Source: Ruminococcus sp. (GTDB lineage Bacteria > Bacillota > Clostridia > Oscillospirales > Ruminococcaceae). From it: a stretch of 64,000 nt of DNA. The DNA is taken from NCBI GenBank assembly GCA_017543335.1, contig JAFYGE010000049.1:26308-90307 (forward strand), read 5' to 3'. The position numbers and the translations under genes are program-made. The notes beneath the pieces are model-generated. The model saw nothing but the letters and a program-made list of their open reading frames with translations, had not been told where the DNA came from and made no database searches. How positions within the stretch are numbered: the first letter of the stretch is position 1; every line of letters starts with the position of its first letter. Below are positions 55,191 through 58,998 of this stretch, in pieces.

Positions 55191-56399
55191 TTACTTTCTT
55201 AAAAGAGCTTTTTCATAAACATGGCACATTTCTACATTAGCTGCCGTTTCTCCGTAAACCTTGTATAACTTGTCAGCACAAGTCATGTAAGATATGTCTT
55301 CGGAGAGTAATTCTCCTGTCTGACACAAAATTTTACCTTTGGTCATGTCAAGATGTGTTACAGCTATTGAGATCTTTTCGTCATCAAGTGCATACTTTCT
55401 GTCGTTTGATAAAGATGTCATGAATTCAGGAAGATCAAACCAGCCATACCTGAAATAGCCTTGAAACTCATTTGGTGAATTTGTTTTATCAATAAGTCCG
55501 CACTTTTTTTGAAGTTCGGGATATTCTGTATCAAATCTTCCCGCACCGTGTCTGGTAAAATACGTACGTGTTACATAGCACACTTCTGTATCACGTTTTT
55601 CAACTCTGTCAAGGATACTTCTGATATTTTTCATACCTGTATTCGATGGAGTAAGATTTGGAAAATAATCATCTCTGTCCATGTCGAGAAGCAAGCCCTG
55701 AGCTCCTTCAAAAACTGCTGTCTGGTACTGATCAATCACAGTAACATCCGATTTACAGCACAATTTTGTCATATAAATCAGCTCATCAATATAATTCAAA
55801 ATTATATTTTCATTGTTGATCAGTTCAAATAATTCTTTGAGCCTGTCATCTTTTATTTTCAGTTCATCCGCTCTTTTACGGCAATAGTTCTTTGAGATCT
55901 CCTGCATTTTGCTGATAAGCTGAGTCCTATATTCATAAGAATCTTCAACCTCACCATATTCAAGCATGTACTTCTCATCAACACTTCGTAGCATTGTCTC
56001 GTATATACCTACTCCGCAGCTTCCGTGACGTTTGTCACCACGATTTCTTTCGGCAAATTGATTTAAAAGCATATCGCACGGAAGCGTAAGCAGACAATGC
56101 TTATCAATATATACTTTGCCGGCTTTAAGTCCGAGTTGCTCAGATTCTCTGTTAAACAGCATCGGATTCACAATAAAAAACTCAGAAAGATATGTGTCAG
56201 CTCCGGCAAAATAACCTGCTCCGATATGAGAAAATACGTGTCTTTTGCCGTCCGGATTGCAGACAGTGTGACCTGCCTGTGCTCCGCCGTTTATCCTTAC
56301 ATCTATGACATTTTCATTTTTTCCGCAAAAATAATCGGTCATAAGCCCCTTACCCTCATCACCAAAATTAGCTCCGATGACTGCGTATGCTTTTTTCAT
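55191..56399 (-). CDS. Divergent adenylosuccinate synthetase (PurA) homologue
   Basis: The start is the ATG at 56399 (402 aa, MKKAYAVIGANFGDEGKGL), after GAGGTG. The GTP-binding N-terminus GANFGDEGKGL keeps the catalytic Asp, and NGGAQAGHTV keeps the catalytic His. FEGAQGLLLDMD and NLTPSNTGMKNI are also PurA-like. But the IMP-binding TTGRGIGP loop is changed to HGSCGVGIYE, and the aspartate-binding TTGRxRR loop is replaced by TNSPNEFQGYFRYGW. So it should be a GTP-dependent ligase-like enzyme with another acceptor or donor. It is the second gene after the VWA gene in a divergon with an NrtR-like regulator. Confidence 0.85.
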   Translation of the reverse strand: MKKAYAVIGANFGDEGKGLMTDYFCGKNENVIDVRINGGAQAGHTVCNPDGKRHVFSHIGAGYFAGADTYLSEFFIVNPMLFNRESEQLGLKAGKVYIDKHCLLTLPCDMLLNQFAERNRGDKRHGSCGVGIYETMLRSVDEKYMLEYGEVEDSYEYRTQLISKMQEISKNYCRKRADELKIKDDRLKELFELINNENIILNYIDELIYMTKLCCKSDVTVIDQYQTAVFEGAQGLLLDMDRDDYFPNLTPSNTGMKNIRSILDRVEKRDTEVCYVTRTYFTRHGAGRFDTEYPELQKKCGLIDKTNSPNEFQGYFRYGWFDLPEFMTSLSNDRKYALDDEKISIAVTHLDMTKGKILCQTGELLSEDISYMTCADKLYKVYGETAANVEMCHVYEKALLRK

Positions 56400-56409
56400 A
56401 TGTATCACC

Positions 56410-57303
56410 TCAGAATCCTATTTTCCTTCTGAAAAATCCTCTTTTCTCGTCATTCATATTGCCAAAAACAGATCTATTTTCATGCTGTACAACAATATCA
56501 TCACTATCTTGCTTGTTCCCTGCATACTCTATCATTGACAATATAACCTGTGGAAGTCTCTGATAATCGTCAACTATAACAGCTCTCTCCCCCATTAACT
56601 TTCTCCAACGGTCTGGCTGCACCTGACCTGCACTTCCTCCCTGCATGAGCATAAGGTGGAAAACTTCATATCTTTTGCTTACTTCGTCAAGTAATGCTCT
56701 TGTATCGACATTTTCATAAACTCTGTCTCCGAACACTCTCTCGATCTCGTCAGCACGTATATATTCCGGGAAGCAATCGTCGCCCATTGTAATGATTATG
56801 CCTTTCTGACGGCGTTTGTCCCACGCATCTGAACGTGTTCTTGTAGCTGCAAAATACCATACTAACGGATAGCTTTCAAAGCCGTTTCCTCCGCCTCCAC
56901 GTTCAAACCAAAGATCTGTAAGCTGATGAGCTATTCTTATGTCAGATTCAAACTGTGTGGCTTGAAGCGGCGAGCTGTCACAAGTCGAATCACCTACTGC
57001 ATTGAACATTATTTGCGGACCCTCAACAGGTCTTCTGTCCAGAAGCTCCTTTACCATGTCGCCAAGCTTCTGTGCTGTAACTGTAAGTATATTGCTCATA
57101 GAACCTGTTACGTCAAGTCCGATAATTATTGGAGTAGATATCGGATGATCCGCTGAATCACAGCTTTCCCTCATTGTGATATTTTTAGGATCATATTTCG
57201 GATCAGTAAATCGGGCGTTGTATATCTCCCCTACACTTCTTCCGCTTATCCTTGCAGATGAATAGCTTCTCCACTCCTCTGTTTTCCATGCACCGTATCC
57301 CAT
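56410..57303 (-). CDS. VWA-domain protein of the PurA-like/NrtR-like divergon
   Basis: The start is the ATG at 57303 (297 aa, MGYGAWKTEEW), after AGGAGG. There is no signal peptide. A von Willebrand A domain occupies about residues 55-245. It has a MIDAS motif DVTGSMS near residue 67 with DxSxS-like residues, and later ITMGDDCFPEY near residue 188 for the distal metal site. Sequence before it, GRSVGEIYNARFTDPKYDP, is not a known domain. VWA proteins often act as adaptors that recruit AAA+ or other partners, but none is present. It starts the minus-strand side of the divergon and ends 10 bases before the PurA-like start. Confidence 0.88.
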   Translation of the reverse strand: MGYGAWKTEEWRSYSSARISGRSVGEIYNARFTDPKYDPKNITMRESCDSADHPISTPIIIGLDVTGSMSNILTVTAQKLGDMVKELLDRRPVEGPQIMFNAVGDSTCDSSPLQATQFESDIRIAHQLTDLWFERGGGGNGFESYPLVWYFAATRTRSDAWDKRRQKGIIITMGDDCFPEYIRADEIERVFGDRVYENVDTRALLDEVSKRYEVFHLMLMQGGSAGQVQPDRWRKLMGERAVIVDDYQRLPQVILSMIEYAGNKQDSDDIVVQHENRSVFGNMNDEKRGFFRRKIGF

Positions 57304-57448
57304 AAATAATCCTCCTTGAATTTTATTAACTGCATTGCAGTTGGTAATATGTTGAGTCAGACTATTAAGCATTTCACTTAATATCATTTTAATAGTAACA
57401 AAAGATAAATAAAAATCGAGCTGAGCTCATTTGTATTTATATCCTTTT

Positions 57449-57471
57449 GTTATTATCATTATAATACTAAC
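57449..57471. promoter_or_regulatory. Operator-like 23-bp palindrome A
   Basis: An imperfect 23-bp palindrome with ends GTTA-TTAT and ATA-CTAAC. It covers the -10 of the minus-strand VWA/PurA promoter. It shares length and pattern with the two other sites in this spacer. Confidence 0.7.
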
Positions 57472-57486
57472 TACTTGATTTGTCAA
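57458..57486 (-). promoter_or_regulatory. Promoter of the VWA-PurA-like operon
   Basis: On the minus strand TTGACA (57486-57481) and TATAAT (57463-57458) are perfect with a 17-bp spacer. Confidence 0.9.
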
Positions 57487-57520
57487 TAGATTTCTATGGA
57501 TTCTACATTTATTCCAATGT

Positions 57521-57543
57521 GATAATATCATTTTAGTATTATC
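57521..57543. promoter_or_regulatory. Operator-like 23-bp palindrome B
   Basis: Ends GATAATA and TATTATC are exact inverted repeats around a 9-bp centre. It lies between the two divergent promoters and overlaps neither -35. It could support loop formation between the other two sites. Confidence 0.7.
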
Positions 57544-57576
57544 TTTGAGCAGTATGCATAATTAGTCATCATTTCC

Positions 57577-57605
57577 TTGACTTACCTTGTTTTTAGTGAT
57601 ATTAT
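57577..57605 (+). promoter_or_regulatory. Promoter of the NrtR-like gene
   Basis: TTGACT (57577-57582) and TATTAT (57600-57605) are 17 bp apart, 31 bases before the ATG. The -10 is inside palindrome C. Confidence 0.75.
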
Positions 57606-57620
57606 TAGTATGATATTATC
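57598..57620. promoter_or_regulatory. Operator-like 23-bp palindrome C
   Basis: Ends GATATTAT and ATATTATC form a 23-bp dyad with the same pattern as A and B. It covers the -10 and the start point of the NrtR-like gene, so the product would probably repress itself. Confidence 0.7.
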
Positions 57621-57635
57621 GAACGGAGGTTTTTT

Positions 57636-58436
57636 ATGGACTACGATATAACCGCATACGACCGCCCTTCTGTAACAGCTGATATTGTCGTTTTCGCTGC
57701 AAGAAAAAGCGACGGCGAGAGCTACAGACACCTTTCAACTCCAGTGCTATCAGTATTGCTCGTTAAACGTACAGATGATCCGTTTTCAGGTATGTTAGCT
57801 CTCCCCGGAGGATTTTGCTGTCGTGAGGAAACTATAGAAGAAACTGCTGAACGTAAACTCAAAGAAAAAACCGGCATCTCTGATCTACCGCTTTCGCTTC
57901 TGTGTAATCTCTCACGCCTCGGACGTGACCCTCGTGGATGGATCATTTCCTGCTGTTATTGGACTTTAATGGAGTTCTCTAATTCAAAAATCGAGAAAAA
58001 TGCTGCTTGGTACGAGGTAGAATTGGATGAAAAGAATGATGTATACACCCTCAAATTGACAGACGATAACGGAAATATTTACCGTTCCGAAGTAAGGCTC
58101 AATAATTCAAATGAGCTTTATAATCAGTCCTCGGAAGCTGAAATACCTGAGAATAGTCTCGCTTTTGACCATGCAGAAATAATTGTGCGAGCTGTTCTTC
58201 AGCTCAGAAACAGCCTTGATAAACCTTTTGCTGCTTTCAGAATGCTGCCGGAGCAGTTTACTCTCACTGAATTGCAGCAAATTTATGAGATGATACTTGA
58301 TAAAAAATTGCTTATGGCTAATTTCAGAAGAAAAATTGCTCCATATGTCGAGGAGACCGGTAATATAGACTCCGGAGCAGGTCATCGCCCGTCTAAATTG
58401 TTCAGAAAAAAGAATGATGTTAATTCATCTATATGA
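57636..58436 (+). CDS. NrtR-like NUDIX-related transcriptional regulator
   Basis: This 266-aa protein has a Nudix domain at residues 12-145 and a C-terminal winged helix at about residues 195-255 (FTLTELQQIYEMILDKKLLMANFRRKI), the NrtR layout. The Nudix box is degenerate: RKLKEKTGI replaces REUxEExGU, so two catalytic glutamates are Lys. NrtR regulators bind ADP-ribose or related ligands and repress NAD or sugar genes. Loss of catalysis is normal for them. The ATG follows GGAGG. It faces the VWA-PurA operon across a spacer with three palindromes, which suggests it regulates both sides. The ligand is unknown. Confidence 0.85.
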   Translation: MDYDITAYDRPSVTADIVVFAARKSDGESYRHLSTPVLSVLLVKRTDDPFSGMLALPGGFCCREETIEETAERKLKEKTGISDLPLSLLCNLSRLGRDPRGWIISCCYWTLMEFSNSKIEKNAAWYEVELDEKNDVYTLKLTDDNGNIYRSEVRLNNSNELYNQSSEAEIPENSLAFDHAEIIVRAVLQLRNSLDKPFAAFRMLPEQFTLTELQQIYEMILDKKLLMANFRRKIAPYVEETGNIDSGAGHRPSKLFRKKNDVNSSI

Positions 58437-58449
58437 TTGGAGTGCTTTT

Positions 58450-58998
58450 ATGGATTTTGAAAGATTAGAAAAAAATATTTGTGATAACGTACTTGAAGCT
58501 CAGCTAAAACTTGGATATGATAAGCGTCCTATCAGCTTCAATTACACGTTGAGCACTCTGCGTAATCTTCTTGCTACAGATGCTGACATGACTGATATGC
58601 AATACGCTCTGTTTCAGTTCAGATTATATTCTGAGCCTGCCCTTGGAGAACTGTCATTTCACGAAATAAAAGACGGTTTCTGCATTACCGTCCCCGAAAA
58701 AGGTACAGAAAATATTCACAATTTATATGACCATAACGTTCTTATTCCCGAACTTGTAAATAAGGTCAGGGAGCATTGCAGCTCTGTTGACGAAGTACTT
58801 GATATATTCAGAAAATACTCCGATGATGCAGTGATAGAGAAAAAGAGCAATGACGAATTCGACTACCTTGTATATTTCAAAAATGGAGTTCCGGACGAGT
58901 ATTATTACTGCATTTCTGTTGAGGAAGAGATAGACGGAAGTCTCCACGTTTCCTATCACAGATTTATAAAAGAAGACTATGAGGAACTCGGATTCTAA
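58450..58998 (+). CDS. DUF3877-like protein
   Basis: The start is the ATG at 58450 (182 aa, MDFERLEKNI), preceded by GGAG. An upstream in-frame ATG at 58414 lies inside the regulator gene. It is a soluble alpha/beta protein. The block VLEAQLKLGYDKRPISFNYTLSTLRNLL near residue 10 matches my memory of the DUF3877 family, function unknown. The domain contains FCITVPEKGTENIHNLYDHN near residue 77. Coupling to the NrtR-like gene places it in the same module. I cannot name a reaction. Confidence 0.7.
   Translation: MDFERLEKNICDNVLEAQLKLGYDKRPISFNYTLSTLRNLLATDADMTDMQYALFQFRLYSEPALGELSFHEIKDGFCITVPEKGTENIHNLYDHNVLIPELVNKVREHCSSVDEVLDIFRKYSDDAVIEKKSNDEFDYLVYFKNGVPDEYYYCISVEEEIDGSLHVSYHRFIKEDYEELGF

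Follow-up and report, generated by a model that had tools for sequence, protein, structure and literature searches.

A probable NrtR-family autorepressor with conserved candidate operator sites at a phage-shared vWA/PurA-like operon in Ruminococcus

Results

Architecture of the divergent locus

The window analysed here, a 64,000-nucleotide stretch of Ruminococcus sp. DNA, holds two transcription units that diverge from one spacer. The plus strand carries a gene for a 266-residue NrtR-family regulator with a degenerate Nudix domain and an NrtR winged helix (57636–58436; assigned with Pfam and phmmer). The minus strand encodes a 297-residue vWA-like protein (56410–57303), matching phrog_2971, a family of unknown function (E 1.2e-50), and a 402-residue PurA-like protein of the adenylosuccinate synthetase family (55191–56399; PF00709 at 133.8 bits, phrog_1211 at E 8.2e-61). 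The vWA-like frame starts at 57303 behind AAGGAGGA; its product has no Pfam or NCBIfam match, and the ‘vWA’ label rests on our reading of a MIDAS-like DVTGS motif. A DUF3877 gene (58450–58995) follows the regulator; a search of 40 relative loci did not recover it.

Both promoters in the spacer are as an earlier note on this DNA described them: TTGACA-17-TATAAT for the vWA operon (57458–57486, minus strand; 12/12 consensus) and TTGACT-17-TATTAT for the regulator (57577–57605, plus strand; 10/12 consensus, with TG before the −10). The three 23-bp palindromes it placed here are dyads of exactly that length at 57449–57471, 57521–57543 and 57598–57620, albeit imperfect ones (arms matching at 9/11, 8/11 and 8/11 positions), and a fourth copy in the vWA leader (57377–57399) had been overlooked. 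The first covers the −10 hexamer of the vWA promoter, the third that of the regulator promoter, and the second lies between both promoters.

The unit common to these sites is a 9-bp box, G(A/T)TAnTA(A/T)C, at a 14-bp pitch; two boxes with 5 bp between them span 23 bp. A single box is itself nearly palindromic, and a box pair therefore looks like a 23-bp palindrome. The boxes score 8/8 and 7/8 over the vWA −10, 8/8 and 6/8 in the middle site, and 7/8 and 8/8 over the regulator −10. The leader site (boxes 57377–57385 and 57391–57399) reaches 7/11 in arm symmetry as a dyad and 14/16 as a box pair, with an ungapped aligned copy in 15/15 relatives used. A weak third box (57435–57443, 6/8) stands 14 bp from the vWA-side site, making a three-box array; several relatives hold a better copy, ATTAATATC, and three boxes in a row are likewise seen upstream of one type B regulator (L058; see below) and in L115. 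The vWA leader also contains a short terminator-like hairpin (57417–57429, minus strand).

Start to start, the four window sites are separated by 72, 72 and 77 bp. The two middle sites lie 72 bp apart in the window and 73 bp apart in the 12 relatives with both scored. The next interval measures 76–80 bp in the window and in all but two of 13 relatives, the exceptions being L036 (107) and L031 (69). This near-constant spacing fits cooperation and does not establish looping; the earlier note had entertained looping, which we do not find supported, the 72–73 bp between the middle sites being the sole hint.

An NrtR-type regulator with a degraded Nudix box

Domain matches bear out the NrtR-type assignment that the earlier note had made from the letters: the regulator scores 71.7 bits against PF21906 (NrtR_WHD; cut-off 27) and 36.6 bits against PF00293 (NUDIX; cut-off 21.1). 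With phmmer it matches the solved proteins 2fml and 3gz5 (3gz5 over both domains) and the AraR structure 5bs6; 3gz5 is presumably the Shewanella oneidensis NrtR. The Nudix box reads G-x5-E-x7-RKLKEKTG, lysine replacing two signature glutamates, and 3gz5, with RKLAEKT at the same place, has the same substitutions. The signature is quoted as GX5-EX7REUXEEXGU (PMC4666351), and the type B paralogues read keep R-E-x-x-E-E. Against NCBIfam NF050029 (ADPR responsive repressor) the regulator gives 115.7 bits, below the cut-off of 400. Its 86%-complete genome yielded no other NrtR_WHD place in a search that was positive in 4 of 14 control genomes.

The sites are conserved beyond chance

Dyad symmetry alone proves nothing, since 23-bp dyads reaching 8/11 or better occur at 152 positions of the window. 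A box pattern drawn from the sites finds 14 window matches at up to two mismatches (1.95 expected; 0/100 shuffles reach 14), eight of them being the four sites read on both strands. In the 2.45-Mb genome, places with 0 mismatches are limited to three sites of this spacer; the counts at up to two mismatches (55+57) are near those of a reversed-pattern control (50+46).

Since that pattern comes from these very sites, a matrix built from relatives is the independent test. Trained on 60 sites from 15 relatives with the divergon, window left out, it ranks the four sites first to fourth in the 64-kb window: the vWA −10 site at 28.5, the regulator −10 site at 28.1, the middle site at 25.7 and the leader site at 21.5, with the next place at 11.8. 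The best scores of 100 single-base-shuffled windows average 10.0, and one reaches 22.3, above the fourth site and below the other three. Relatives that keep the divergon also keep the sites, as the earlier note had expected if its reading held: across 15 aligned spacers (L100, with a 460-bp spacer, left out), mean column conservation is 91.4% in the four sites (92 columns) vs 68.0% elsewhere (161 columns), the best difference among 253 shifts of the site mask. The window carries the base most common among the relatives at 77% of site columns vs 58% of others. Chance AT-rich dyads were rejected on the conservation and on the matrix trained without the window. A second matrix, from 12 type B sites, places the same four sites 1–4 (24.6, 24.0, 23.8 and 19.6; next 14.3), and is not fully independent because its sites were chosen for their resemblance to the type A consensus.

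Sites travel with the regulator and with the operon

Homologues of the regulator occur in 79 of 125 genomes of the genus, 19 at 74% identity or more (the window’s own included), three at about 60% and the others lower. Among the 18 type A relatives, 13 have a J-like gene diverging at 266–295 bp and five have other neighbours. Behind the J-like gene come vWA and PurA-like genes in 12 of the 13, and the remaining locus ends at a contig end. The site corresponding to 57598–57620 is matched in 18/18 type A relatives, at positions −36 to −39 relative to the start of the regulator gene, and is thus kept in all five that lack the operon beside the regulator. Conversely, three genomes with the operon away from the regulator (G053, G066 and G033; loci L091–L093) hold weaker box pairs, 14–15/16, at its promoter. 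In two more (G101 and G058, the latter 80% complete; L107 and L108) the operon has perfect box pairs and there is no regulator homologue closer than about 40% identity. With a threshold of 58% identity for each, regulator and vWA are found together in 18 of the 125 genomes, regulator only in four, vWA only in two and neither in 101, counts that ignore kinship.

Negative controls agree. In five loci of the genus, where a two-vWA module lacks an adjacent regulator, box scores do not exceed 11/16 (p 0.49–0.64); four of these genomes lack a regulator homologue in the genus search and the fifth, G022, has one. The earlier note’s proposal of a repressor for its own gene and the divergent operon is supported by the domains, the solved relatives and the preferential conservation of the sites, which remain at the regulator gene or at the operon in genomes that have the two apart. 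In the two-vWA loci (L193–L196 and L201), a pair of tandem vWA-like genes and a PurA-like gene follow a gene whose product is similar to the J-like protein in its C-terminal part, and no NrtR gene adjoins them; the L196 copy of that product starts with a cysteine-pair region.

The NAD-type NrtR paralogues of the genus (type B) share the motif, which is consequently not special to this regulator. A pncA-like gene lies within 6 kb of the regulator in 17 of 18 type B loci, and those read also carry a (nicotinate or nicotinamide) phosphoribosyltransferase-like gene. Box pairs of at least 14/16 at the 14-bp pitch occur in 13 of 18 loci (0.1 expected from shuffles), compared with 2/18 for pairs at 11 bp. 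In type A spacers, the 11-bp and 14-bp pitches are equally frequent (18/19 loci each), probably because TTATTATTA overlaps itself.

Box pairs at module loci across the Bacillota

A vWA-family scan of named genomes returned 65 loci, 62 of which were scored (L094, L133 and L154 dropped). The PurA-like gene comes after vWA in nearly all, and most have a J-like gene or P185 ahead of vWA. An NrtR-type gene (at least 60 bits) is near in 36 of the 62, in divergent, first or last position. Box pairs scoring 14/16 or better at p ≤ 0.02 (floor 1/301) are present in 31/62, where chance would give about one; all 31 are Bacillota by name, and 11 lie outside the type A Ruminococcus group; cyanobacterial L124 (13/16, p 0.003) stands outside this count. 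Three Desulfosporosinus modules carry box pairs with a regulator 30–31% identical to ours, and in Colinaster, whose regulator gene comes at the end of the row, the boxes lie at the first gene.

Over the 62 loci, box pairs are modestly associated with a nearby regulator: 23 loci have both, 13 the regulator alone, 8 the boxes alone and 18 neither (Fisher p 0.02, kinship ignored). The 13 regulator-only loci include L150, scanned before P185 and having a perfect pair before its regulator gene, L143, cut by a contig end, and four Lachnospiraceae loci (L126, L138, L139 and L141) that have a TAGTCA..TGACTA dyad at the module promoter instead. Among the eight with boxes only, the regulator is encoded at another place of the genome for L091–L093 and L110, L107 and L108 have only a 40% homologue, and L135 and L147 show no regulator within the fetched stretch. 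A 66-row regulator tree requires seven changes of the module label and three of the NAD label; long branches meet there and leave the deep order unsure, and the rows omit L091–L099, nine near-duplicates, and short or weak matches.

Two further observations concern these rows. In the four Lachnospiraceae loci the NrtR-type gene is last, and a second TAGTCA..TGACTA copy lies roughly 55–60 bp upstream, weaker in L139 and L141. In L143 (2–5130), regulator, pncA, P185, vWA and PurA-like genes form a single co-oriented row in which about 590 bp separate pncA from P185; L150 (4842–9087) has the same neighbours, and such rows are a direct NAD link.

The putatively controlled module is shared with phages

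To judge from its proteins, the operon is a chromosomal form of a module—a J/kinase-like protein or P185, then vWA and PurA-like proteins—that is also found in phages. A vWA relative is present in 207 of 50,697 phage records and precedes a PurA-like gene in the three records read. IMG/VR holds 387 stretches encoding a vWA-like protein; among the best 80 of them, a PurA-like gene is present in 78, the J-like gene in 46, P185 in 14 and a partial NrtR-like match in four, so the repressor appears to be mostly a feature of bacterial copies, among those fetched. Phage contigs L204–L283 show the module as a J/kinase-like gene or P185 with vWA-like and PurA-like genes.

In Mycobacterium phage MoMoMixon (L090:3835–7608) the product of the gene before vWA has a kinase match above the Pfam cut-off and a J-domain match below it. 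The Ruminococcus J-like protein likewise has a below-cut-off J-domain match; it matches phrog_3043, the phage family matched by the MoMoMixon protein as well, at 2.9e-10. The HPD of the J-domain is invariant in 18 aligned J-like proteins. No J-like gene was found in the window genome (86% complete) by one search run without a positive control. P185 has no Pfam match. J-like (66/134 loci) and P185 (34/134) look like alternatives, with no locus listed for both; this neighbour clustering used 134 of 145 loci, eleven near-duplicates having been removed. Nicotinamidase occurs in phage locus L213, and, by first residues, a nicotinamide phosphoribosyltransferase-like family in 6/134 loci and an NAD synthetase-like one in 4/134.

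The PurA-like protein scores below the equivalog cut-offs for purA (95.9 vs 395.55 bits) and PurZ (44 vs 300). Where 3r7t has STGRKRRCGW, the window protein, its relatives and Vibrio phage Va1 have PNEFQG or close variants, and the resulting loop, PNEFQGxxRYG, is non-canonical; given this change, the substrates may differ from the canonical ones. PADLOC returned no match for four window proteins, and filing the locus as a defence system was dropped on that ground.

Discussion

We propose that the regulator is an autorepressor that also represses the vWA/PurA-like operon and is released by an ADP-ribose-like ligand, a reading to which we give a probability of about 0.8. Genome comparison supports the sites, their conservation and their link to the regulator clade and the operon; binding by the regulator, repression, ligand and any looping are what we infer. 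The 266-residue protein would act as a one-component repressor, a dimer reading two boxes 14 bp apart. At 57598–57620 such a dimer would cover the −10 of its own promoter, and at 57449–57471 that of the divergent operon; repression by occlusion is suggested by this overlap with both −10 hexamers. The middle and leader sites may contribute affinity or cooperativity. Release of the repressor, switching on both transcripts, would follow from a ligand bound in its degraded Nudix domain, and ADP-ribose or a related NAD-derived or purine nucleotide seems likeliest, a class pointed to by the Nudix box and published NrtR work.

In the accounts we draw on, ADP-ribose suppresses NrtR DNA binding in Shewanella, Synechocystis and Mycobacterium, and a Corynebacterium family member responds to NAD (PMC4666351, PMC6800001, in part). 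Family members (3gz5; MsNrtR, PMC6800001) share with ours the Nudix domain and winged helix, a degraded Nudix box and, as predicted for ours, autorepression, and the Mycobacterium palindrome, GTTTTCGA-N7-TCGAAAAC, is likewise 23 bp (PMC6800001). They differ in target, NAD synthesis rather than a vWA/PurA-like operon, and in motif: the Mycobacterium and Streptococcus motifs quoted in passages of PMC6800001 are unlike the 14-bp-pitch boxes. NrtR proteins with non-NAD targets are already known from AraR. BtAraR of Bacteroides (5bs6) acts through tandem sites on such a target, its dimer covering 25 bp, comparable to the 23-bp sites here, whereas its genes are for arabinose and its effector is L-arabinose (PMC4666351, as far as the relevant passages go). 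Section 3.8 of PMC9503650 predicts Nudix-HTH repressors beside vWA genes in ADP-ribosylglycohydrolase-centred conflict systems; the common elements are a one-component Nudix repressor by a vWA gene and proposed ADP-ribose sensing. The PurA-like gene sets our locus apart, ‘adenylosuccinate’ being absent from the main text of PMC9503650, and no ADP-ribosylglycohydrolase was recognised, by first residues, among the 30 largest neighbour clusters. The PurA-like protein of the window has its adenylosuccinate synthetase family and a phage distribution in common with PurZ and the phage enzymes of phrog_1211, and differs in its 44 bits against the PurZ cut-off of 300 and in its PNEFQGxxRYG loop. Titles and selected passages of the papers searched yielded no description of the module or the operator. 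By its domains the regulator is an NrtR-family member, and its arrangement with a vWA/PurA-like operon is new among the NrtR systems compared.

Three other accounts of the sites deserve weighing. The boxes could serve another, unlinked transcription factor, or be AT-rich promoter features without a repressor; 8/11 dyads are indeed common in the window (152 positions), two sites coincide with −10 hexamers, and L135 and L147 have box pairs with no regulator in the fetched stretch. We nevertheless think this improbable: two of the four sites are away from any −10, the site stays with a lone regulator gene in 5/5 cases, the same boxes precede NAD-type NrtR genes (13/18 type B loci), and five module loci without an adjacent regulator are without boxes. 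About as improbable is an RNA hairpin attenuator built from the leader copy at 57377–57399 and the promoter-proximal box. By our own reading, these arms form the fold in the leaders of 11 out of 16 relatives, and other arms do so in the window, and the window has the terminator-like hairpin at 57429–57417. Against this, palindromic boxes pair as RNA by themselves, and the 133 arm-pair cells of 15 relatives comprise 106 Watson–Crick, 15 G–U and 12 mismatched pairs; only two column pairs hold a pairing-preserving double change, in one sequence each. With so little compensatory change, the attenuator was rejected.

A stronger contender, which we still judge rather unlikely, is that the regulator is an ordinary NAD regulator and the vWA–PurA-like operon just one of its NAD-regulon targets. 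The operator is common to type A and type B, 17 of 18 type B paralogues are near a pncA-like gene, and the L143 and L150 rows join regulator, pncA and module. The window’s own metagenome-assembled genome (86% complete) may point the other way: its pncA–nadE locus has no box pair above 12/16, from which the protein may serve only itself and the vWA operon in this species. In the same genome, five of the seven other 1-mismatch places fall inside coding sequence (L075 and L078–L081), for which a genome-wide regulon there was set aside; L074 lies between genes, L077 at a gene start, and none of the seven is beside a recognised NAD gene.

On the autorepressor reading, Bacillota may have placed a phage-shared module under an ADP-ribose-sensing repressor, such that NAD breakdown, for example upon phage attack, would induce an unknown purine-nucleotide chemistry; we offer this only tentatively. 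More directly, an uncharacterised module shared with phages gains a candidate regulator, an operator code and a candidate inducer class, NAD or ADP-ribose derivatives. The data also suggest one operator grammar for the NAD-salvage NrtR genes and the module, by which both regulons would be callable in Bacillota genomes from the box pair at its 14-bp pitch.
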